Shown here one piece after another: positions 44,294 to 58,218 of a stretch of 64,000 nt of DNA. Position 1 is the first letter of the stretch. Every line of letters starts with the position of its first letter. A program made the position numbers and the translations under genes. The notes under the pieces were generated by a model that saw nothing but the letters and a program-made list of their open reading frames with translations, made no database searches and had not been told where the DNA came from. This DNA comes from Halobacteriales archaeon QS_4_69_225 (GTDB lineage Archaea > Halobacteriota > Halobacteria > Halobacteriales > Haloarculaceae), in the NCBI GenBank assembly GCA_003020965.1, contig PXRL01000012.1:1-64000 (forward strand), in the 5' to 3' direction.

Positions 44294-46858
44294 CTATCTC
44301 CGGGCGATTCGGGAGCCGTACAGCAGCACGGCGGCGGCGATCACGGCGATCACCAACACGACGAACCGCGCCGGGCCGCCGCCGCCGATCTCCTGGAGGC
44401 TGCCGACGACCGAGTCGTCGTCCGTGTCGGTCGACGACCCGCCGTCGGTCGGCGTCGGAGTCGCCGTCTCGTTGCCGGTCGACCCGATACCGCCGTCGCC
44501 GCCGGTTCCGTCGTCCGAGCCGTCACCGGTGTCACCGGCACCGCCTCCGCCGGCGCTATCGCTTCCGTCGCCACCGCTGCCGTCGCTACTGCCGTCGTCC
44601 CCACCACCGCCATCGCCACCGCTATCATCCCCACTTCCGTCCCCACCGCTTCCGTCACCGCTGCCATCGGCACCGCCTCCGCCAACGTTACCGCTGCCAT
44701 CGCCACTACCATCATCCCCACCGCTGCCGTCGCTACTGCCGTCGTCCCCACTACTGCCATCGCTATTTCCGTCGCCACCACTGCCGTCGCTGTTTCCGTC
44801 GCCACCACTACCGTCGCTACTTTCGTCGCCGCCACTTCCGTCGCTGTCGCTGCCGTCGCCACCGTTTCCGTCGCCACTGCCATCGTTCCCATCACTGCCG
44901 TCGCCGCCGCTTCCGTCGTCGGTCGACTGTTCGTCGACCGACACGACCTTATCGGTCGACTGCGTGACGTCCTCGTCGCCGGGCGTCGTCGTTACGAGTA
45001 GCGACGCATCGTCGGCGCCGGGAGCGGTGTCGAACCTGATGGCACGGTCGTCGCTCCGGCGGAGTTGGAAGCTGTCGCCCGCTTCGGTGGTCTCCTGGAC
45101 GTCGAGAACGACCGTCCGGCCGTCGACCGCCTCGACGGTCGGCGCCGCGGTGTCGCCGGAGGTCGTCACGACCTTGGGCGTCTGCGACTCGTCGAAGGTG
45201 ACCCCCGTGTCTTCCAGCTCGACGGTGACAGTCGTACCGGCGGCCATCATCCCGCCGATGTCGTCGGTGAGGTCGACCCGGACGTCGCCGTCGCCGGCGG
45301 TCGCCGTCCGGTCGGCCGCGACGGTCGTCCCGCCGGGCTCGACGACCGGCGCGTGCGCCGACACCGGGTTGCCGCCCTCCTCGACGAACACCCGTTCGGT
45401 CGCGTTCACCGGCTTGTGGGTGCCGTCGAGCCGCGCGACGAACTCCGCCGGCTCGGCCGCCGTCGCGCCGCTGACGTTGAACCTGATGTTTTTGACCATC
45501 AGGTACTCCTCGCGGTCGATCTGACAGCTGAGGTCGACCAGCACCGAGTTTTCGGTGACGTTTACGTCCTCGGGGAGCGGATCGGAAACTACGTCGCCGA
45601 TGATCGGGGGCTCGCAGTTGCCCTCCCTAGTGAAGGCCTGGACGTCACTGGAGGTGTCGAAGGAGACCTCTTCCCGGTACTCCTCGGGAATCTGGATGGC
45701 GAGAAGTTCGTCCTCTGCGTGGAACCCCTCGGTCTTCGCGTCGCTCGGCGCCTGGGCGAAGAACTTGGCGCCGTCGCCGGGCACCCCGTCGGCGCCGCGC
45801 GGGAGGTCGTTCCCGAAGCCGAGGAACTTGAGCCGCTCGGGCGTCACCGTCGTCGTCCCGGAGACGTCGCCGAACTGCCAGGTCGCCGCCTCGACGCTAG
45901 CGTTGTCGTCGCTGGTGAACCGGAGCCCCTCCAGGGCCAGCGAACTGTTCACCTCGGGGTCGACGCCGTCGACGTCGACCGTCACCGTCCGCGCGGTGAC
46001 GTCGGCCACCTCGGCGTCGGCGCCGTCGGCGGTCGCCGTCGCCGAGGTGGCGTTAGTGTCGAAGGTGACGGTGCTGTCGTCGTCGAGCGTCAGCCGCGCG
46101 GTGCCGTTGTCCGGGAAGTCGCCGGCGGCCTCCTCGGTCAGCCGCAGGGTTGCCGGCCCCTCGCCAGCCTCCGCGATCGGTGCCTGCGCGGAGGCGCCGG
46201 CGGTGACGGCGACCGACGCCGGGGCGGCGGCCCCCTGTCCCGATGCCCCAGCGCCCGACGAACCCTCCTGGCTTCCGGCGGCCTGCGGAGTACCGAGCGC
46301 TCCATCGACGACCGAAAGTCCGACTCCGGTCGTCGCCCCGCTCGTGACGTCGTCGGCCGTCCCGGCGGCCTCGTCAGTCGTCTCCTCAGCGGCGTCGACT
46401 GTCTCGTCAGCCGTCTCCTCGGCAGTGTCTACCGTCTCGTCAGCCGTCTCCTCGGCGGTGTCGACCGTCTCGTCGGTCGTTTCCTCGGCGGTATCGGCTG
46501 TCTCGTCGGTCGTCTCGGCCGCCTCGTCTACGTCGGCGTCGCCGTCGTCGGCCGTCTCGCCTGCGTCGGCCGCGTCGGTCGTTCTCTCGTCGGAGCCGCC
46601 AGAGGAGTCCCTCGAAGAGTCGCCCGAGGAGTCGGTGTCGGCGGCGTCCGTGATTCCGTCGTCGGTACTGTCCTCCGTGTCGGTCGGGTCGGTCGTGTCG
46701 TCGGCGCCCACGTCCGTCGCGGCGGTGGCGTCGTCGGGAGAGCCGTCGGCGACCGTCTGACCGGCGACGGCGACGGCTCCACCGACCATCGACAGCATCA
46801 TCGCTGCTGCCAGCAGGACCGCTCGAACCCGTTCGCTCGTTTTCGATCGTCGGCTCAT
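44294..46858 (-). CDS. Low-complexity cell-surface protein with C-terminal membrane anchor
   Basis: 854 aa. A signal peptide follows MSRRSKTSERVRAVLLAAAM. Residues about 120-170 are 11-residue repeats of the type ETADETVDTAE. The folded middle (about 240-600) holds Thr/Asp-rich beta segments with N-glycosylation sequons. Residues 650-800 are Gly/Ser/Asp repeats (GDGSGGDGS-like). The tail ends GGGGPARFVVLVIAVIAAAV, then LLYGSRIARR: a helix and Arg tail as in sortase-type anchors, but without PGF. Probably envelope-exposed and glycosylated. The nucleotide repeat makes the exact length prone to variation. Start at 46858, before the hydrophobic signal. Confidence 0.78.
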   Translation of the reverse strand: MSRRSKTSERVRAVLLAAAMMLSMVGGAVAVAGQTVADGSPDDATAATDVGADDTTDPTDTEDSTDDGITDAADTDSSGDSSRDSSGGSDERTTDAADAGETADDGDADVDEAAETTDETADTAEETTDETVDTAEETADETVDTAEETADETVDAAEETTDEAAGTADDVTSGATTGVGLSVVDGALGTPQAAGSQEGSSGAGASGQGAAAPASVAVTAGASAQAPIAEAGEGPATLRLTEEAAGDFPDNGTARLTLDDDSTVTFDTNATSATATADGADAEVADVTARTVTVDVDGVDPEVNSSLALEGLRFTSDDNASVEAATWQFGDVSGTTTVTPERLKFLGFGNDLPRGADGVPGDGAKFFAQAPSDAKTEGFHAEDELLAIQIPEEYREEVSFDTSSDVQAFTREGNCEPPIIGDVVSDPLPEDVNVTENSVLVDLSCQIDREEYLMVKNIRFNVSGATAAEPAEFVARLDGTHKPVNATERVFVEEGGNPVSAHAPVVEPGGTTVAADRTATAGDGDVRVDLTDDIGGMMAAGTTVTVELEDTGVTFDESQTPKVVTTSGDTAAPTVEAVDGRTVVLDVQETTEAGDSFQLRRSDDRAIRFDTAPGADDASLLVTTTPGDEDVTQSTDKVVSVDEQSTDDGSGGDGSDGNDGSGDGNGGDGSDSDGSGGDESSDGSGGDGNSDGSGGDGNSDGSSGDDGSSDGSGGDDGSGDGSGNVGGGGADGSGDGSGGDGSGDDSGGDGGGGDDGSSDGSGGDGSDSAGGGGAGDTGDGSDDGTGGDGGIGSTGNETATPTPTDGGSSTDTDDDSVVGSLQEIGGGGPARFVVLVIAVIAAAVLLYGSRIARR

Positions 46859-48224: not shown

Positions 48225-49025
48225 ATGCTCACCCTCGTCGGCCTCGGCCTCTACGACGAGCGGTCGATCACCGTCCGGGGACGGGACGCCCTGCGGGCCG
48301 CCGACCGCGTCTTCGCGGAGTTCTACACCAGCACGCTCGCCGGGGCGACGGTCGCAGACCTCGAGGCCGAACACGGCGTCGAAATCGAGGTCCGGGACCG
48401 CGAGGGCGTCGAGCGGAACCCCGAGCCGATCCTCGCCGCCGCCGAGGCCGGCGACGCCGTCTTCCTCACCGCCGGCGACACGATGATCTCGACGACGCAC
48501 GTCGACCTCCGGCTCCGAACGGCCCGACGTGGCATCGACACGCGGGTCGTCCACGGCACGACCGCCGAGGCCGCTGCCGCCTCGCTCTGCGGCCTCCAGA
48601 ACTACCGCTTCGGGAAGGCGACGACGCTGCCGTTCCCCTGGGCCCACGGCGGCGAGGGCGTCCCGGACAGCGTCGTCGAGACGGTCGAACGGAACCGCGA
48701 GCGCGGCCTCCACACGCTCGTCTTCCTCGACATCAAGGTCGGCACCGGGCCGTCGGGCCCCGACCCCGACTTCGAGGAGTACATGACCGCCGACCGGGCG
48801 GCGGGGCTGCTCGCCGACGAGGTGGGCGGCGTCGCCGTCGCCGTCGCCCGCGCCGGCGGCCCGGACCCGGTCGTCGTCGCCGACGAGCTGTCGGCGCTCG
48901 CCGGGCGGTCCTTCGGCGCCCCGCTGCACCTGCTGGTGGTCCCGGGCGACCTCCACGTCGTCGAGCGCGACGCCCTCGCGGAGCTGGTCGACGGCCCCGC
49001 GGACGTCCTCCCGGACCCCGTTTAG
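48225..49025 (+). CDS. dph5: Diphthine synthase
   Basis: 266 aa. It methylates the modified histidine of elongation factor aEF-2 during diphthamide synthesis, using SAM. MLTLVGLGLYDERSITVRGR, TAGDTMISTTHVDLRLR and NYRFGKATTLPFPW are the hallmark segments. The start MLTLVGLG is the family start; the frame extends upstream through repeat DNA that is not coding. Its end overlaps the convergent second sortase gene by 4 bases. Confidence 0.96.
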   Translation: MLTLVGLGLYDERSITVRGRDALRAADRVFAEFYTSTLAGATVADLEAEHGVEIEVRDREGVERNPEPILAAAEAGDAVFLTAGDTMISTTHVDLRLRTARRGIDTRVVHGTTAEAAAASLCGLQNYRFGKATTLPFPWAHGGEGVPDSVVETVERNRERGLHTLVFLDIKVGTGPSGPDPDFEEYMTADRAAGLLADEVGGVAVAVARAGGPDPVVVADELSALAGRSFGAPLHLLVVPGDLHVVERDALAELVDGPADVLPDPV

Positions 49026-49996
49026 TCGTCGGCCCGCGCCGGGTCGGCGCCCGGGCGGTCCTCCAGCAGCCCGAGTTCGGCGGCCGTGTCCCGCTCCTCG
49101 CCGGTCGCCATGTAGGTGACGTCGTCGACGATGACCAGCAGCTCCGGCAGCTCCCGGATGATGAACCACGCGATGGCGACCAGCGCGACGACGGACAGCA
49201 CCTGGCTGATGATCCCCTCGGCGACGATGTGCGACACCATGTAGGGGTCGGACTCGCCGAACAGTTCCATCAGGTACGGCGCGTACGGCCCGTCGAACCA
49301 CTGGTGGCCGAAGGCCAGCCCGATGAACGTCGTCCGGACGACGTTGAGAACGTAGATGACGCCGACCGCGACGGCCAGCGCGCGGAGCTTCCGGGCCAGC
49401 GGCGCCCGTACCGCCGCGATACAGCCGGCGAAGATGGCCATGCTCCCCAGTCCCGTACACGCCATCACGATGTTGTAGACGATGCCGTCGTGGGAGGGGT
49501 CGGCCGTCTCGAAGTGGAATGCGGCCATGTATCCCTCGTAGGCGGGCCGATCGGAGTCGATGGGCCGCAGCGTCGGGTCGTAGCCCAAGAGATCCATCAG
49601 CAGCGCCGTCTGCCGGGCGACGTGTTCGACGAGCAGCTGCCGGACGAACGGAATCGTCTCGGCCGGCATGTACACCAGCCCCATCACGGCGACGGCCCGC
49701 GAGAGGACGAACAGCGAGTCCCGACCCCCGGCGAGCAGGAAGCCGGCGTACAGACAGGCGGGGACGCCGGCCAGCGCCAGCGCCGCCTCGACGACGCTGT
49801 TCTGAACGAGGAAGAAAAACGGCGCCAGCAGCAGCCAGAAGACGGCGAACAGCGCCCACGCCGCCCCGACGACGTACCGCGCGGCGGCCGGGCGCCGCCG
49901 CTCGAGGAGGGCACCGCCGCCGAACAGCGCCACCAGCACCCACGCCAGCGGGTCGGTGACCGCGAGCACGTCCACCGGAAGCATCGGTTCCACCAT
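49022..49996 (-). CDS. Second archaeosortase-like membrane protein, altered third active-site position
   Basis: 324 aa, about eight helices, alignable along its whole length to ArtA at 51046-51990. Shared are the Cys in IVMACTGLGSMAIFAG (Cys180) and the Arg in VLNVVRTTFIGLA (Arg221). Where ArtA has ADRVLSQ, this has AEGIISQ: the third catalytic Arg is a Gly (residue 261), with His256 five residues before. It may use the His or be inactive. It is last of a three-gene strand with ArtA and a Tat protein, so it may act on a distinct substrate or assist ArtA. The cytoplasmic C-terminus is acidic. Confidence 0.85.
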   Translation of the reverse strand: MVEPMLPVDVLAVTDPLAWVLVALFGGGALLERRRPAAARYVVGAAWALFAVFWLLLAPFFFLVQNSVVEAALALAGVPACLYAGFLLAGGRDSLFVLSRAVAVMGLVYMPAETIPFVRQLLVEHVARQTALLMDLLGYDPTLRPIDSDRPAYEGYMAAFHFETADPSHDGIVYNIVMACTGLGSMAIFAGCIAAVRAPLARKLRALAVAVGVIYVLNVVRTTFIGLAFGHQWFDGPYAPYLMELFGESDPYMVSHIVAEGIISQVLSVVALVAIAWFIIRELPELLVIVDDVTYMATGEERDTAAELGLLEDRPGADPARADD

Positions 49997-50032
49997 GGGT
50001 CGGTCGTCTGAAGTCGTTGTCGGCCCGCCGTC

Positions 50033-51049
50033 TCACCACTGGACGTGGGTCGCCCGGTGGCGATCGTCGTACGCCGCCAGCCCTCGACCGGCCACCGACG
50101 CCACGCCGAGGTCGTCGTACACCGTCGAGTGGGTGTAGTCGACGAACGTCATCGGCACCACCAGGTCGCCGTCCTCCCGGATCGCCGACGCCACGCCGGT
50201 GTAGACGTGCTTGTGGCGGGCGTCCCGGACGTAGGCAGCCGCGACCGGCGCCCGCTGGACGTGCGGCGCGACCGCCTGTAGCGCCTCCATCGACCGGACG
50301 GTGAGCTCGTAGCAGAACAGCCCGGCGTCGTCGTCCGTCAGCAGCCCCTCGAGGTCCGTCCGTTCCTCGAACGGCGCCCGGAGGTCGACCGCGCCGAGCA
50401 GGACGTTGTCCTCGACCGACCCCGCGAGGTACCGCGGAATGTCGTAGGAGGCGTGCTCGCGGAACGCGTCGACGAGGCCGTCGACCGTCGCCGCCGGCCG
50501 CCGCGGGGAGACGCCGGCGAACCGCTCGACGACGTCTGGGTCGACCCGTCGGTCCGTCCGTCCCCGCATTGCGGTGACGGCCTCCGGGCGGGGATCGGCG
50601 CCGGCGACCCGCTCGAAGAACGCCGCCGGCCGACCGAACGTCAGTTCGTACTCTCCGGCAACGAGGTCGCTCGCGTCGGCGTACAGCGCCTCGAGACGGC
50701 CGCCGAGCCCCAGGTCGGCGTCGAGGTCGGCCGCCGTCGCCTCCGCGTCCGCCCGGAGGGCGAGGCGGCGACCGCCGTCGGCCGTCGAGACGACGACGTC
50801 GCCGTCGATGACCCGGAGCCGGCGGCCGGCGACCCGCTCGTCGTACCACATCCGGAGGCTGTCGGCGACGAGGCCCGCGAGGTCCTGCTCGAGGAGGTTC
50901 GTCCCGTAACCCAACTCCCCGTAGCCGAGCAGCGCGTTGTCGGCGGCTCGGGCGGCGGCGCCGCCGGCGAGCGTCCCGCCGGCGCCGGCGAGGAAGCGCC
51001 GCCGGGAGACGTCCGGGAACTCCGCGACCCGGGGGGTCTCCTCGGTCAC
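50033..51049 (-). CDS. Tat-exported protein between two archaeosortases, unknown family
   Basis: 338 aa from a GTG overlapping the artA stop (VTEETPRVAEF). A twin-Arg signal VSRRRFLAGAGGTLAGGAAA near residue 15 directs folded export through Tat. The mature part is acidic and alpha/beta; I do not recognise its family. It contains DNALLGYGELGYGTNLLEQD, LVPMTFVDYTHSTVYDDLG-like, and ends RHRATHVQW. Conserved Asp/His/Tyr in MTFVDYTHSTVYDD suggests an enzyme. Its conserved place in one operon with two sortases suggests a role in processing or anchoring surface proteins. Confidence 0.72.
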   Translation of the reverse strand: MTEETPRVAEFPDVSRRRFLAGAGGTLAGGAAARAADNALLGYGELGYGTNLLEQDLAGLVADSLRMWYDERVAGRRLRVIDGDVVVSTADGGRRLALRADAEATAADLDADLGLGGRLEALYADASDLVAGEYELTFGRPAAFFERVAGADPRPEAVTAMRGRTDRRVDPDVVERFAGVSPRRPAATVDGLVDAFREHASYDIPRYLAGSVEDNVLLGAVDLRAPFEERTDLEGLLTDDDAGLFCYELTVRSMEALQAVAPHVQRAPVAAAYVRDARHKHVYTGVASAIREDGDLVVPMTFVDYTHSTVYDDLGVASVAGRGLAAYDDRHRATHVQW

Positions 51050-51990
51050 CGTCGCTCGCCCCCGTCGGTCGCCGTCGACGGCGGCCGCAGCCGCACCTCG
51101 TCGCCGGTCACTAGGTACAGCAGGTCCTCGGCGATCCCGAGCAGTTGTGGCACCCACCGCGAGACCAGCCACGCGATGCCGACCAGGGCGACCAGCGCGA
51201 GACTCTGCGACAGCACGCGGTCGGCAAAGTAAAACGACACATGTGAGGGGTCCGACAGCCCGAACGCCGCCATCACCGGCCCTTCCAGCGCCGGGTGGTC
51301 GAACCAGGCGTAGCCGTTGGCCGCCGCGATGAAGGCGTTGCGGACGATATTGAGCACCCAGATGATCGACAGCGACACCGCGAGTGCCACCGCCTTCCGG
51401 CGCAGCGGCGCCCGGACGGCACCGATGAGCCCCCCGAAGATTGCCAGACTCCCGATGCCCGTACAGGCGAATATCACCCGCGAGGCCCGCTCCGTCTCCG
51501 GGAACCAGAACGTGTTCCGCAGGGTCGACCCCTCGGGGTCTTCGATCAGCTCCATCCCGTCGCCGAGGCCGGCCACCTCCAGCAGCCACGCCGTCTGCCG
51601 GGCCACCGTCTCGATGAGAAACCCCCGGATCGGCGCCGACATCTGGAACGGCAGGTAGATCAGCCCCATCAGCGCCACGGCGCGGGACAGCACGAGCAGC
51701 GACTCCCGGCCGGCGAGCAGCGTCCGGCCGACGTACAGACACAGCGGCACCGCCGCGGCCACGAGCACCGTCTCGACGATGCTACGGTGGACGACGGCGA
51801 ACTGGTGGATCAACAACAGCCAGAAGACGGCGAACAGCGCCCAGGCGCCGGCCGTCACCCGGCGAGCGAGGTCGCGCCGCTCCTGGCGGTCGGCGAGCAC
51901 CCCCAGTAGGAAGACGCCGACGACGATCCACGCCAGGACGTCCGTGACCGGAAGCACCGACAGCCCCGTCAGCGACTGCGCCGGGAGCAT
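51046..51990 (-). CDS. artA: Archaeosortase A
   Basis: 314 aa membrane protein of about eight helices, the enzyme that recognises the PGF-CTERM tail, removes it and joins the protein to lipid. The catalytic set is intact: Cys176 in VIFACTGIGSLAIFGG, Arg217 in VLNIVRNAFIAAANG and Arg258 in FADRVLSQSLA. Start MLPAQSLTGLSVLPVTD. A PGF-CTERM surface protein gene lies directly upstream on the same strand, separated by 228 bases containing 22-bp repeats. It is followed by overlap (GTGA) with the Tat protein gene, so the three genes are probably one transcript. Confidence 0.9.
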   Translation of the reverse strand: MLPAQSLTGLSVLPVTDVLAWIVVGVFLLGVLADRQERRDLARRVTAGAWALFAVFWLLLIHQFAVVHRSIVETVLVAAAVPLCLYVGRTLLAGRESLLVLSRAVALMGLIYLPFQMSAPIRGFLIETVARQTAWLLEVAGLGDGMELIEDPEGSTLRNTFWFPETERASRVIFACTGIGSLAIFGGLIGAVRAPLRRKAVALAVSLSIIWVLNIVRNAFIAAANGYAWFDHPALEGPVMAAFGLSDPSHVSFYFADRVLSQSLALVALVGIAWLVSRWVPQLLGIAEDLLYLVTGDEVRLRPPSTATDGGERR

Positions 51991-52108
51991 CCTTGTTCGA
52001 AACTACGCCACGACCATCATATGTCTTGTCGTCGCGGGCGCGACCGGGACAGAACACCCGCCGGCGTGTCGGTCGGAGCCGGCACACTGTCGGCGGGGTG
52101 TCCGCGTC

Positions 52109-52165
52109 GCTGTCGGTAGGTATCGGCGACGCTGTCGGTAGGTACCAGCGACGCTGTCGGCGTCG
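52109..52165 (+). repeat. 22-bp tandem repeat upstream of artA
   Basis: The unit GCTGTCGGTAGGTATCGGCG then AC stands at 52109-52130, a slightly changed copy at 52131-52152, and a partial copy at 52153-52165. It lies 119-175 bases before the artA ATG and 53 bases from the stop of the surface glycoprotein gene. Confidence 0.65.
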
Positions 52166-52217
52166 CGCGCGAAAGAATGGTACCGCGGAAACCGCGAAGG
52201 CCGGGCGGTCCGGCTGG

Positions 52218-55200
52218 TTAGAAGTCGGTCCGACGGGCAGCCAGCAGCGCCGCGCCGATGAGCGCGATCAGCGCCAGCACGGCACCGAAGCCGGGCTGGT
52301 CGGTGGGCGTCTCGGTCGGCGTCGGCGTCGACGGCTCCGGCGTCGCGGTCGGCGTCGGCGTCGACGGCTCCGGCGTCGGCGTCTCCTGCTCGAAGGTGAC
52401 CGACGCGGAGTCCGTCACGATTGCGCCGCCAGCGGTGTACGGACCGTCTTCGCCGCCTTCCGTCTCGACGAAGTCGTACTCCTCGTTGTCGTTGGTGTCC
52501 TGGTGCGGCATCGCGATGGCGGTCTGCGTCTCGCCGTCGCTTCTCACGTACGGATCGTCGAGTTCGATCTCGAGGTTGCTGAAGTTGCCCTCCTCGAGGT
52601 ACTCGGAGGACCCACGGACGCTGTCTAACGTCGCGCCGTCTTGCAGCGTGCCGTCGTGGATGGTGACGAAACCGCCCTGCGGCAAGGAGCCGGAGTCAAC
52701 CGTGATGGTCGACACCTCGTCCTGGTCGACAGAGGCCGTGGTTTCGCTGATGGACACCTGAGCGTTCCGGCCCTCGACGACGCGGCCGTCCGTTTCGGCG
52801 CTGTCCTCGATACCCGCTCTGGTCGCGGTCACGACGAACGTCCGTCCGACCTCGTTGTCCGAGAAGTCGAACGTGCTGTCACCGAAGCTGCCGTCGTCCT
52901 GGACCTCGACGTCGGCCCGCTGGAAGACGGGTGCCAGCTCGGAGGTGTCGTTGCTGTTGTTGCGCCGCGTCCGGGTCGAGGAGTCCACCGCGATGGTGAG
53001 ATTCGTACCGGGTGCGATGTTGGTCGTCCCAGCGATCTCCTGGTCCGCGGCCGGTTCGACACGGACCTCACTGCCGTCTCCGGTGTCGAACTCGGCCGTG
53101 CGGTCCTCGATGTCGAGGTTGACCGACGTGCTCTCTTCGGGAGCGTACTCGTCGATGCCGCCCTCGAAGGTCTCGTTGAAGCCCGACCCGACGTTGAACT
53201 CGAACCTGTAGAGGTCGCCGGTTTCGACCTGCTCGTCCGTGTTGGGCTCGTCGGCGGTCTCGCGGTTCAGGCTGATCTGCTGGACGTCGGTGACGAGGTA
53301 GACCGTCTCGTTGTCCTCGTCGATGACGAACTCGAAGCCTTCACCGGTCGGGTTGGTGAAGTTGTTCCGCTTCGGCTCGCGGTTCTGCCGGAAGTTCACC
53401 TGCTCGAACGTGAGGTTCAGGATCGGATCGTCCTCGCTGGACGCGCCGAGCGCGGTGCCGCCGGTCTGTGCCTCGCGCAGAATCTCCTCGCCGTCTGCGC
53501 TCTCCAGCGAGCCGGCGCCGGTGGACTCGGTACGGATCGCGTCGAACGCACCGTAGACACCGGAGATGTTGACTCGGTGGATCAGGAGGTCACGCTCGGG
53601 GCTGCCGCGGTCGTCGTCGCGGTCCGAGAGCGTGACGACGTCGGTCTCCGAGAGGTCCTCGTTCTCGGACAGCTCCGAGACCTCGTCGGCGTTGGACAGC
53701 GACGTGTCGGGGTGCCGGAGCTGGTCCAGCGACTCGTAGCTCGACTGGCGGATGTTGAGCACACCCGCGTCGACCTCGCGCTCGCGTTCCGTCTGCCGGG
53801 TCTCGATCGTCAGGTCGTACTGACCCTCGTCGAGAACGCCGGTCAGCTGATCCGTCCGGCGGTTGGACGTCACGAGCTCGCCCTCGGTCACCTCGTAGGC
53901 GTCCGAGGCGTTCTCGACGTTGCCGGCGAGGAAGGTGTTCATCCGGATCTCGATCTCGCCGTCGTCGCTCGGCTCGACGACGAGCGTCGTTTCGTAGTTG
54001 TTCCGCTCCTCGTCGCCGATCGTGACGGTGACGGTTTCGATGTCGGTCGTATCGATCGAAATCGTCGAGTCCGAGTTACCCTCGTCACTCTGGATGTCGC
54101 CACGCTTGACCGTGAACGCCCCGCTGTCGGAGGCGAACTCGGCGTCAGCGTCCGGCTGCTCCTCGATTTCGATCTCCGCGCTCGCGTTGCCGGTGGTATC
54201 CTGCACCTCGAAGTCGAACGAGAAGTTACCCGTCTCGTCGAAGTTGAACAGGATCGAACCGGTTTCGTTGACGCCGTCCACGCGGACCGCGTCGTCGCTC
54301 GGCGAGCGATCGGTGTTGATGTTGGTGGACGTGCTGTCCTGGATGATGCTCGTCAGCTCGCTCTGGCTGAGGTTATCCGAGTCGACGAACAGGTCGAAGT
54401 TGTCACGGTTGGAGTCGACCTCCAGCGTCACGTTTTCGCCCTCGAACTCCGTGTCCGTTTCGAACTCGGTGCTGAGCGTCTGCGGGACGATTTCGACGGC
54501 GTCGTCGTCCGCGTTGTCGTTACCGCCGGCGCCAGCATCGAATCCCTGCTGTTCGCCTTCCTCGTTGACCTCGACGATCGTCGGATCGTTGAACTCGGTA
54601 CCGTTCTCGTCCGTACCCTGTGCCGTGATGACGACGCGCTCGTTGTCCGGCACGTTCTCGGTTTCGATCTGTGCACCCTCGCTGTCGTTCAGCGAGATCT
54701 GGGTGATCAGCGCGCCGATGTCTTCGTCACCGTTGCGATCGCCCGGCGTGTAGAGCCGGAGCTCGTAATCCTCGATCTGGCCGCCGTTGGTGTCGGCCTC
54801 GAAGTCCAGGATCTGGCCCTTGAACCGGGTCTGACCGCCGCCGAAGCTGTCGTCGGTGTTCCGATCGCGACGGTCTTCCTCGGCGTCGCCGGCGTCATTG
54901 ATGTCGTAGCTGTCGGTGGTGGACTTGAAGTCGTTCGACGAGAACACACCGGGCTCGTAGGAACGCAGCTCGCCCTGGTAGGTGTCCTCGACGGCCGGGT
55001 TGTCCACGCTGTCGGCGATTCCGACTCGGAGCTCCGCGCCGTCGTCCGGCTCGACGTTGTTCTGGAACTCGATCTGGAAGGAGTCCTGCGTGCCGTCGCC
55101 GTCGTTGTCGACGGCCGCGGCGTCGTCGACGACGACGTCCCGCTCGGTACCGTTGTCGAGAGTGACGTTGACGTCACTCTCGTCCGGGTCATCGACGCTA

Positions 55201-55484
55201 CCACCGGAGGTGCCGTCGGAAGCGTCGGTGAGCACGATCTCAACGCCACCGATCGAGTTGTTCTCGTCGTCCGAACCGTTCTGAACGTCGAACGAGAAGT
55301 TGTACGTTACGTCCTGTGCGTCTGTGCTACTATCCTGCGGGGTAATGTCACCATTGCTGATGCTGCCATTACCCTCGATTGCGGCGGCACTCCCTGCCAG
55401 CGCGACGGTTCCTGCGAAGACCCACAGGACCATCAGCGCCGCGAGGAACACCGCACGCAGCGGATTGTTGGTTTCGTCTGTCAT
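52218..55484 (-). CDS. PGF-CTERM surface glycoprotein, S-layer-like
   Basis: 1088 aa. A signal peptide after MTDETNNPLRAVFLAALMVL is of the haloarchaeal S-layer type. The long acidic body (residues 35-1020) has many Asn-Xaa-Ser/Thr sequons and beta-sandwich-like segments. A Thr/Pro spacer (TPTPEPSTPTPTATPEPS) suits O-glycosylation. The end TDQPGFGAVLALIALIGAAL, then LAARRTDF, is a complete PGF-CTERM: PGF motif, helix and basic tail, the archaeosortase A signal. It is probably the S-layer or a major envelope protein, since it is long, has a TATA box and long leader, and sits next to artA. Start at 55484. Confidence 0.9.
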   Translation of the reverse strand: MTDETNNPLRAVFLAALMVLWVFAGTVALAGSAAAIEGNGSISNGDITPQDSSTDAQDVTYNFSFDVQNGSDDENNSIGGVEIVLTDASDGTSGGSVDDPDESDVNVTLDNGTERDVVVDDAAAVDNDGDGTQDSFQIEFQNNVEPDDGAELRVGIADSVDNPAVEDTYQGELRSYEPGVFSSNDFKSTTDSYDINDAGDAEEDRRDRNTDDSFGGGQTRFKGQILDFEADTNGGQIEDYELRLYTPGDRNGDEDIGALITQISLNDSEGAQIETENVPDNERVVITAQGTDENGTEFNDPTIVEVNEEGEQQGFDAGAGGNDNADDDAVEIVPQTLSTEFETDTEFEGENVTLEVDSNRDNFDLFVDSDNLSQSELTSIIQDSTSTNINTDRSPSDDAVRVDGVNETGSILFNFDETGNFSFDFEVQDTTGNASAEIEIEEQPDADAEFASDSGAFTVKRGDIQSDEGNSDSTISIDTTDIETVTVTIGDEERNNYETTLVVEPSDDGEIEIRMNTFLAGNVENASDAYEVTEGELVTSNRRTDQLTGVLDEGQYDLTIETRQTEREREVDAGVLNIRQSSYESLDQLRHPDTSLSNADEVSELSENEDLSETDVVTLSDRDDDRGSPERDLLIHRVNISGVYGAFDAIRTESTGAGSLESADGEEILREAQTGGTALGASSEDDPILNLTFEQVNFRQNREPKRNNFTNPTGEGFEFVIDEDNETVYLVTDVQQISLNRETADEPNTDEQVETGDLYRFEFNVGSGFNETFEGGIDEYAPEESTSVNLDIEDRTAEFDTGDGSEVRVEPAADQEIAGTTNIAPGTNLTIAVDSSTRTRRNNSNDTSELAPVFQRADVEVQDDGSFGDSTFDFSDNEVGRTFVVTATRAGIEDSAETDGRVVEGRNAQVSISETTASVDQDEVSTITVDSGSLPQGGFVTIHDGTLQDGATLDSVRGSSEYLEEGNFSNLEIELDDPYVRSDGETQTAIAMPHQDTNDNEEYDFVETEGGEDGPYTAGGAIVTDSASVTFEQETPTPEPSTPTPTATPEPSTPTPTETPTDQPGFGAVLALIALIGAALLAARRTDF

Positions 55485-56593: not shown

Positions 56594-57766
56594 ATGACCC
56601 TCCGGAGGCGGAAACTACTGACGACCGCTGCTGCGGCGCCGCTCGCTGCGACCGCCGGGTGTACCGACGGGTTCGGGTTCGGCGACGACGCGGATACCAG
56701 GGACGTGCCGGCGTACGCTCGATGGGTCCCGGCCAGCGGCCCCGGCGAGGACGGAGCCGGATACGTGTATGTGGACTGGGCCGCAATAAATACTCTCCAA
56801 GACCTCGGGGAGAGCCTCCCGGGCGACGACCCGCCGTTCGAGGGGACACCCGGTAGGGGCTCGACGGAGGGAACTGGGGGTGACGCACTCGTCATCGTCC
56901 CGGGGACGGCCGTCGTCGCCGCGGGGCTCGGCATCGGGGTCGGCCTCGGCGTCTACGGAATCGAGTCTCTCGTCGGCCTCGTTGACGAGTACGTGGACGA
57001 TCCCGTCATGGACGACCCCGGCGATTCGCCCGCAGAGACACCCACCGACGACGGAGAGCCGGACCTCGGCAGCATGGAGACGACGCTCCTGACGCGGCGC
57101 GCTATCGTGCTTGAGGGGTCTTTCGACCTTGAGGCAGTCGAGGAGGCCGCGACCGACGCCGAGTTCGAACGGTCCGGCACGCATCAGGACGCCCGAATCT
57201 ACGAGGGAACGGGCGGGATACTCGGGTCGGACGACCTCGCGTTCGCCGCCCGCGAGGACGCCCTCGTGTTCGGCATTGCGCCCTCCGACGGCTCGTCCCT
57301 CGGGGAGACGCCCACGGAGGAAGCCCCTCGCGAGGAGGACGTGCGGTCCCGCGTCGAGCGCCTTTTGAACGCGGAGTCGGGAGAGACCGAACGACTGTCC
57401 GGGCGCAGTGACGACGCCGGGTGGGCGCTGGGGAGGGCCGGCCACGGCCACGTCGTCGTCGGTGGATGGGGCGATGTCGACGCCGACTCCCCCGGCGGCG
57501 GGGCGTTCGAGGCCCCCGGGTTCGGCACCGGGGAGGCGACGCCGGAACCGCTCCCCGAGTCTGACGGTGAGGTGTACTCCCTGACGCTGGAGGAGTCGGA
57601 GCTATCGGGCGACATGGCGGCCGTGTACCCGGAAAGCGAGACCCCCGACCGCGAACCCGTCGAGTCCAGCGTCGGCAACACCGCCGACGGACGGGAAATC
57701 GAAATCGACGGCCAGCGGGTGGCCGTTACCGGCACCTGGAGCCGCGAAACCGAACAGAAAAGCTAA
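56594..57766 (+). CDS. Lipoprotein of unknown function, 390 aa
   Basis: Begins MTLRRRKLLTTAAAAPLAAT then AGC: a Tat-like twin-Arg signal (RRRK) with a lipobox cysteine, so it is exported and lipid-anchored. The mature part is acidic with Gly/Pro-rich loops and a hydrophobic stretch near residue 100 (ALVIVPGTAVVAAGLGIGVG). No family is recognised. Similar haloarchaeal proteins lie next to DNA-repair or lipoprotein loci. It ends 4 bases into the convergent membrane gene. Confidence 0.7.
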   Translation: MTLRRRKLLTTAAAAPLAATAGCTDGFGFGDDADTRDVPAYARWVPASGPGEDGAGYVYVDWAAINTLQDLGESLPGDDPPFEGTPGRGSTEGTGGDALVIVPGTAVVAAGLGIGVGLGVYGIESLVGLVDEYVDDPVMDDPGDSPAETPTDDGEPDLGSMETTLLTRRAIVLEGSFDLEAVEEAATDAEFERSGTHQDARIYEGTGGILGSDDLAFAAREDALVFGIAPSDGSSLGETPTEEAPREEDVRSRVERLLNAESGETERLSGRSDDAGWALGRAGHGHVVVGGWGDVDADSPGGGAFEAPGFGTGEATPEPLPESDGEVYSLTLEESELSGDMAAVYPESETPDREPVESSVGNTADGREIEIDGQRVAVTGTWSRETEQKS

Positions 57767-58218
57767 ACGGCGAGACCCCGCTCTCGGACCAGCGGCCAGT
57801 AGAACCACCACGCCACGGCCCACGTCGTCAGCACCCCGACCGGCAGCACCATCGCGGGACTCGTTCCGTACGCCCGGTGGAGACCGTAGGCGACCTGTGC
57901 ATGGGCGAGCCCGGCAAAGACGAGCAGGCCGCCGGTCAGCCGCGGGTCCTCGAACGACCGGAGACCACCGACTGCGCTCGCGAGCGCGCCCGCGTGAAGC
58001 ACGGTACCCGCCGGCCACGCCTGCAGCCGCCGCGGGAGCCTGCCGGTGTGGACGAAGAGGTAGTCGTAGATGTTCACGAGCGTCGGCGGGTTCGTGTTCA
58101 CCAGGCCGAACCCGAAGACGAGACTCGCCTCCCCGTCGAGGAGGATCACCGTCCACGGCAGGAGTCCGAGAGAGGCGACCGCGGCGAGCCGTCGCCCCGG
58201 GGATGACCCGTCGTCCAT
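57763..58218 (-). CDS. Haloarchaeal membrane protein, TIGR04206-like
   Basis: 151 aa with about four helices. It starts MDDGSSPGRRLAAVASLGLL, then PWTVILLDGEASLVFGFGLV, a polar loop NIYDYLFVHTGRLPRRLQAW and a conserved-looking HAQVAYGLHRAYGTSPAMVL. The pattern resembles the haloarchaeal TIGR04206 family; I am not certain. Function unknown. Confidence 0.65.
   Translation of the reverse strand: MDDGSSPGRRLAAVASLGLLPWTVILLDGEASLVFGFGLVNTNPPTLVNIYDYLFVHTGRLPRRLQAWPAGTVLHAGALASAVGGLRSFEDPRLTGGLLVFAGLAHAQVAYGLHRAYGTSPAMVLPVGVLTTWAVAWWFYWPLVRERGLAV

Follow-up and report, generated by a model that had tools for sequence, protein, structure and literature searches.

A probable elaboration of archaeosortase A anchoring in a haloarchaeon: an unnamed Tat-signal protein family and a divergent ArtA paralogue

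Introduction

The closest described counterpart of the locus considered here is the ArtA/PGF-CTERM/PssA-PssD system, by which Haloferax volcanii anchors surface proteins through archaeosortase A (ArtA), whose cleavage of proteins and their attachment to lipid are established. The critical residues of H. volcanii ArtA are Cys173, Arg214 and Arg253, the last of these found critical by mutagenesis (PMC9263693), and both PssA and PssD are required for ArtA-dependent maturation (PMC7157517); the Haloferax model in which archaetidylethanolamine is the acceptor lipid was called speculative by its own authors (PMC7157517). In haloarchaea artA and pssD are reported as unclustered, and an artA-pssA-pssD cluster is described in Methanosarcina (PMC7157517). 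We analyzed a stretch of 64,000 nucleotides (“the window”) from Halobacteriales archaeon QS_4_69_225 (assembly GCA_003020965.1, contig PXRL01000012.1, here C12; the genome amounts to 2.95 Mb in 28 contigs and is ~89% complete), in which a gene for a protein with a twin-arginine translocation (Tat) signal lies between two ArtA genes, downstream of the gene for a PGF-CTERM surface glycoprotein.

The window resembles the H. volcanii system in the critical residues of its first ArtA (ArtA-1), in its PGF-CTERM proteins and in a PssD encoded on another contig, and differs from it by an overlapping gene for the Tat protein and a second, clustered ArtA (ArtA-2). With the Methanosarcina cluster it shares the principle that genes of one anchoring pathway stand side by side, but the gene added in the window belongs to the Tat protein family. 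Neither the Tat protein nor paired ArtAs are mentioned in the available portions of the archaeosortase and PGF-CTERM literature searched, a scope outside which the archaeosortase paper of 2012 and the Haloferax ArtA papers of 2013 and 2018 fall, and the same holds for the available text of PMC7157517, PMC9263693, PMC8305020 and PMC4500146. Our verdict is that the locus joins a known pathway to an undescribed accessory family, the Tat protein, and to a divergent paralogue, ArtA-2; to judge from its setting, the Tat protein looks like a missing part of the anchoring pathway. With a gene order that links it to the sortase as well as to a lipid-making enzyme, the Tat family offers a direct handle on how ArtA joins protein to lipid; its cultured carriers include Natronomonas, Haloarchaeobius and Haladaptatus.

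Results and Discussion

Organization of the locus

The genes on which the analysis centers are as follows.

52218..55484, minus strand: PGF-CTERM surface glycoprotein, 1088 amino acids; halo_sig_pep, BGTF surface domain, DUF7282, and a PGF-CTERM tail at 52230-52310
51046..51990, minus strand: ArtA-1, archaeosortase A, 314 amino acids; TIGR04125 at 325 bits (cut-off 75); Cys176 at 51465-51463, Arg217 at 51342-51340, Arg258 at 51219-51217
51046..51049, minus strand: GTGA, the 4-base overlap of the ArtA-1 stop and the Tat-protein start, read directly in the sequence
50033..51049, minus strand: Tat-signal protein, 338 amino acids, unnamed family; twin Arg at 16-17; Cys246 at 50314-50312, His279, His281 at 50209-50207 and Asp304 at 50140-50138, invariant in the family
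49022..49996, minus strand: ArtA-2, divergent archaeosortase A, 324 amino acids; TIGR04125 at 322.9 bits (cut-off 75); Cys180, Arg221 and Glu260-Gly261 (Gly codon 49216-49214), the last pair standing against Asp257-Arg258 of ArtA-1

The initial annotation of this DNA had described these four genes, and its observation of the locus is confirmed: all four open reading frames are intact where it had placed them, the glycoprotein has 1088 amino acids and a PGF-CTERM, the catalytic residues Cys176, Arg217 and Arg258 are present in ArtA-1, the ArtA-1 stop and the Tat start share the bases GTGA, and the Tat-signal protein belongs, as it had said, to no recognized family. Its full-length ArtA paralogue is indeed full-length (324 amino acids), but the change at the catalytic position (Gly261) had been left out. 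In the direction of transcription the glycoprotein is followed by ArtA-1, the Tat-signal protein and ArtA-2, with spacers of 227 bases between the glycoprotein and ArtA-1 and of 36 bases between the Tat gene stop and ArtA-2. The whole row recurs in two other metagenome bins (loci L004 and L013, the latter with a shortened Tat frame), and variants of it are present in other genomes of the same genus and family; this recurrence argues that the gene row is more than chance. ArtA-1 and ArtA-2, which are 49% identical, are the only TIGR04125 matches in the ~89% of the genome that is represented, and of its 11 PGF-CTERM matches 10 exceed the cut-off.

The glycoprotein has the PGF motif, hydrophobic stretch and basic tail of a PGF-CTERM protein (TIGR04126 at 42.1 bits, cut-off 24.5; PF18204 at 30 bits, cut-off 18.8). 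Against NF041335, the ArtA-dependent S-layer glycoprotein, it scores 97.3 bits, far under the equivalog cut-off of 1100. Of 66 loci examined, 15 have a relative of it (cluster c6), ending in a PGF or AGF tail, close to the Tat gene. At a further locus (L098, genome G119), where the fetched stretch showed neither ArtA nor PssD, the gene immediately after the Tat gene is on the other strand and codes for a surface-like protein whose tail is of PGF type.

The Tat gene often lies beside ArtA or PssD

The Tat family was sought in 391 genomes of the class, from 86 genera, by a protein search and by a profile search, both of which gave 56 carriers. These represent 27 of the 86 genera, and the family is haloarchaeal: a wider sample gave matches in 12 of 392 genomes of the phylum, all from the window's own order, the share of the 392 lying outside that order not being listed. 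Within the sampled family f4 the Tat protein was found only in genome G259, H. volcanii itself being outside the search.

For the 55 other carriers, the neighborhood of the Tat gene was fetched, some stretches ending at contig ends, and searched for ArtA and PssD. Within 1.6 kb of the Tat gene, ArtA was found in 19 and PssD in 18; with the window included, the Tat gene stands beside ArtA in 20 of 56 carriers, beside PssD in 18 and beside either of them in 38. A representative of the PssD group matches NF038088, “protein sorting system archaetidylserine decarboxylase,” at 301.5 bits (cut-off 240). In 12 of the 16 loci examined that have ArtA upstream, from two families, the Tat gene could start at a codon giving a 4-base overlap with the ArtA stop, and such an overlap is possible in 11 of the 20 carriers in which ArtA adjoins the Tat gene. 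The Tat gene precedes ArtA in four of these 20 (genera g9, g10, and g14) and is inverted in G351. On a tree of 54 of the 67 Tat-family sequences, the context of the gene changes at least nine times. That one gene should stand, depending on the lineage, beside either of two otherwise unclustered genes of a single pathway is good evidence of a role in that pathway. Most likely, judging by gene order, the Tat protein works in ArtA/PssD lipid anchoring, and we are fairly confident that it would do so outside the cell.

The interpretation given in the initial annotation, a surface-processing module with two sortases, is partly supported. The module agrees with the proximity of the Tat gene to ArtA or PssD in the 38 carriers, and the Tat protein was not found to occur widely without sortases: ArtA is present in 390 of the 391 genomes, all 56 carriers among them. 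The proposal that the Tat protein always lies beside a second sortase failed. In 47 of the 56 carriers there is a single ArtA match, so that no second sortase is required; within 1.6 kb, 18 of the 55 carriers fetched have neither ArtA nor PssD. Two full-length ArtAs are more frequent among carriers (9/56) than among non-carriers (8/335; Fisher p 0.00013, a value that ignores relatedness). The raw count for non-carriers was 13, from which three with only a C-terminal second fragment and two with one gene in two pieces were removed; one of the remaining eight, G369, has two copies of equal score, perhaps duplicated in assembly. The ArtA pair lies inside the Tat cluster in eight of the nine two-ArtA carriers. 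In the ninth, G159, a tandem ArtA pair is on a contig other than that of the Tat gene, which ends beside an ArtA fragment. Among the eight non-carriers, the copies are far apart on one contig in two and on different contigs in six, where closeness across contig ends is possible.

Conserved residues and predicted fold of the Tat protein

An alignment of 63 of the 67 Tat-family sequences (four short ones omitted, some genomes represented twice) is identical in every row at Arg16, Arg17, Arg162, Arg206, Tyr207, Cys246, Arg252, His279, His281, Asp304, and Tyr305. The twin Arg aligns in 63 of 63 rows, start codons having been picked partly by its presence; the TAT_signal models score below their cut-offs on the Tat protein of the window (12.3 against 22.7, and 11.7 against 16.7). 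In an AlphaFold2 model of the whole protein, Cys246 opens a helix, His281 opens a strand and Asp304 directly follows a strand. A Cys at a helix start with His and Asp at strand edges is the arrangement of transglutaminase-like enzymes, and the order Cys, His, Asp is also present in haloarchaeal transglutaminase cores. The likeness to transglutaminase-like and arylamine N-acetyltransferase (NAT) thiol enzymes thus lies in residue order and in helix and strand placement, together with weak, short Foldseek rows to NATs (E 0.5 to 1.4, non-significant), whereas a significant match in sequence or fold was not found. The Cys-His and His-Asp spacings also differ, being 35 and 23 in the Tat family (48 of 54 rows) and 43 and 16 in 23 haloarchaeal transglutaminase cores. 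We incline slightly towards the Tat protein being a Cys-His-Asp (thiol) enzyme, on the strength of the invariant Cys246, His281, and Asp304; because fold and profile comparisons did not confirm homology, this is something we infer. Two further matches were read as chance: PF14449, to a single member of the family at E 0.041, and designed repeat proteins among the PDB sequences, the best at E 0.00012.

A number of observations weigh against an enzyme of the anchoring pathway. The family is missing from 335 of the 391 genomes by our searches, the ArtA tree implies no fewer than 20 changes in its presence, a patchy spread, and in 18 of the 55 fetched carriers the Tat gene is near neither ArtA nor PssD, although in one of these 18 (G388) ArtA lies at 2.7 kb and a second Tat copy adjoins ArtA. 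The copies at L013, L083, and L009 look truncated or split, and the gene evolves faster than ArtA-1, with ratios of non-synonymous to synonymous change (dN/dS) of 0.39-0.53 in four comparisons against 0.17-0.37; this faster evolution and the broken copies look as if the Tat gene were dispensable. On the side of structure and homology, the whole-protein model is only moderate (predicted local distance difference test, pLDDT, 71.4), and the C-terminal part folded alone is poor (pLDDT 52.1), rendering its search unusable. Foldseek of the whole model against the PDB and viral libraries returned nothing below E 0.001, hhalign of the Tat profile against the 23 transglutaminase cores gave a probability of 0.7%, and Pfam and NCBIfam gave no match to the protein above cut-off, nor did PADLOC give any with E up to 1. 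As to the broken copies, L013 is from a metagenome bin and L083 from a genome that is 82% complete; L009 is from a complete Haladaptatus chromosome.

ArtA-2, a paralogue with an altered site

ArtA-1 has Cys176, Arg217, and Arg258 at the positions of H. volcanii Cys173, Arg214, and Arg253. ArtA-2 retains Cys180 and Arg221 and has Gly261 in place of Arg258, with no basic residue in its Glu-Gly pair. We examined the residue at the Arg253 position and the one preceding it in an alignment of 125 ArtAs. Of 95 rows read initially, 10 were dropped as duplicate, truncated or misread (L079 being restored from gene predictions made here) and a further 21, every one with Arg at that site, were thinned out; 60 new rows brought the total to 125. 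The pairs are DR in 66 rows, HN in 26, DK in eight, and HH and HS in seven each; the remaining rows have EG (five), EY (four), ES (one), or a deletion (one). A basic residue is present in the pair in 114 of the 125, and the rows that lack one are all second copies.

Counting against a simple equation of this change with inactivity, there are ArtAs alone in their genomes with HN, HH, HS, or DK at the pair. Because lone ArtAs tolerate HN, HH, and HS, loss of Arg253 alone is no proof of lost activity, and the suggestion that ArtA-2 is a dead enzyme for want of the Arg is weakened by the N, H, K, or S found there in other ArtAs; the site of ArtA-2 is, as far as sequence comparison goes, better described as altered than as dead. 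Purifying selection on ArtA-2 is indicated by dN/dS values of 0.32 against L004, 0.19 against L013, and 0.20 against L080 (the row for the L079 ArtA-2, with dN 2.13 at 82% identity, was dropped as misframed), and ArtA-2 is probably an altered partner, not debris. Separately, the HN, HH, or HS found at several loci among L197-L255, where the window has 51217-51222, amounts to a natural swap at a catalytic position, and its occurrence in lone ArtAs in place of the critical Arg of H. volcanii bears on the sortase mechanism.

Phylogenetic analysis of the 125 ArtAs, by a quick method, placed the Tat-adjacent copies of genus g1 and family f9 in one group (support 99), which also includes two f9 ArtAs whose genomes lack the Tat protein. 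Tat-adjacent ArtAs of other genera of family f1 fall in the same larger group (79 rows, support 94), together with ArtAs of other families, carriers and non-carriers alike. Tandem pairs in other f1 genera have as their second copy (on the side of dph5 where this could be seen) a member of the ordinary f1 ArtA group (support 98), and ArtA-2 of the window forms with six relatives a separate, long-branched group (support 99). Six members of g1 keep only the Tat-adjacent ArtA. Our reading of this tree is that a Tat-coupled ArtA may have entered or arisen in the family, the old copy then being kept, altered, or lost. Four genomes without the Tat protein (L185-L188; G371, G228, G258, G165) also have a distant second ArtA-like copy, which reads Glu-Tyr at the Arg253 pair and lies away from the main ArtA as far as the contigs show; the Glu-Gly and Glu-Tyr groups of second copies, which might be a single ancient paralogue, are on one side of a branch with a support of only 49.

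Proposed roles and alternative explanations

On balance we favor the view that the row is an archaeosortase A (PGF-CTERM) anchoring locus in elaborated form, with the Tat protein in the pathway and ArtA-2 an altered paralogue. ArtA-1 would be the working sortase, cutting the C-terminal PGF signal of proteins like the adjoining glycoprotein and handing the freshly made C terminus to an archaeal lipid, for which archaetidylethanolamine, as made by PssA and PssD, is a candidate. The Tat protein, whose gene linkage is observed and whose export and reaction we infer, would be exported to the outer face and act in the same pathway, most likely as a Cys-His-Asp thiol enzyme of transglutaminase-like design working on the bond between surface protein and aminolipid; that it joins, trims, or undoes this lipid bond is a tentative suggestion. 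ArtA-2 would be a kept, altered paralogue, which probably modulates ArtA-1 or handles some other substrate and does not perform the standard reaction. A bolder version, which we rate as speculative, makes the Tat protein a second thiol enzyme, a transglutaminase-like acyl transferase or hydrolase, meeting the ArtA-cut protein and the PssD-made aminolipid at the outer face, with ArtA-2 as its retained partner in some species; if true, some haloarchaea would use two enzymes for the reaction of ArtA-mediated anchoring.

The same features of the Tat protein can be read in other ways. A surface cysteine protease comparable to bacterial LapG, releasing or trimming PGF-CTERM proteins rather than helping their attachment, would fit the invariant Cys, His, and Asp and the twin-arginine start equally well, and would find its substrate and ArtA among the neighbors of its gene; adjacency to the lipid-making PssD points to attachment, however, and the Tat protein matches no peptidase family above cut-off, so we consider a protease rather improbable. 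We rate at about the same low level a role without catalysis, as binding partner or chaperone for ArtA or its lipid substrate. The conserved residues would then be structural or metal ligands, as His279, His281, and Asp304 could be, and the want of a significant fold or profile match to a thiol enzyme is in line with this, but a Cys found in 63 of 63 rows at a helix start, with the His and Asp after it at strand edges, would be expected of a thiol enzyme. Less probable still is that the linkage is old gene order without function, the Tat gene having come to stand beside PssD in one lineage and ArtA in another by chance and been carried along since. The 18 loci with neither neighbor agree with this, as does the clustering of carriers by genus and family, because of which the contexts are not independent samples; against it are the recurrence at two unlinked sites of one pathway, the possible 4-base overlap in two families, the context changes on the Tat tree, and our own estimate that a random site would fall near either gene in well under 1% of a genome of ~3.5 Mb.

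For ArtA-2, the competing explanation is a second active sortase with substrates of its own instead of an altered or regulatory paralogue. It is the strongest of these alternatives, if still the less probable choice: ArtA-2 retains Cys180 and Arg221 and is under purifying selection, and the nearby gene at 44294-46858 codes for a surface protein that has no PGF tail, but Glu-Gly or Glu-Ser stands where most rows hold a basic residue, and the surface proteins encoded at the corresponding place in relatives have no common tail motif.

Neighboring genes

Two further features adjoin the locus.

48225..49025, plus strand: dph5, diphthine synthase; TIGR00522 at 230.1 bits (cut-off 114.3)
57763..58218, minus strand: TIGR04206 “near_ArtA” protein, 151 amino acids; 122.2 bits (cut-off 90)

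The dph5 gene is convergent with ArtA-2, tail to tail with a 4-base overlap, and recurs as a neighbor in many related loci. TIGR04206 is likewise a family named for its proximity to ArtA, but its member in the window is a small protein of a family separate from the Tat protein, which gave no match to the TIGR04206 model at E up to 1.

The protein encoded at 44294-46858 is acidic and surface-like. Its start resembles a signal, and it has a hydrophobic stretch at the C terminus together with Arg-Arg; it has no PGF motif and no NCBIfam match at E 0.001. We rejected the notion of a new tail motif on this protein as the target of ArtA-2, as the tails found there differ among relatives and no match to the protein was found in the stretches fetched from G351 and G389.

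Two other proteins were seen next to the Tat gene elsewhere. One follows it at L006, L008, L011, and L099, standing between the Tat gene and the ArtA pair at L011; its L099 copy has a weak match to the SdpB family (27.2 bits, cut-off 178.4). The other is encoded directly before the Tat gene at L093, L097, L105, L121, and L127, and its L127 copy has a twin-arginine (RR) start and an HETLH motif.

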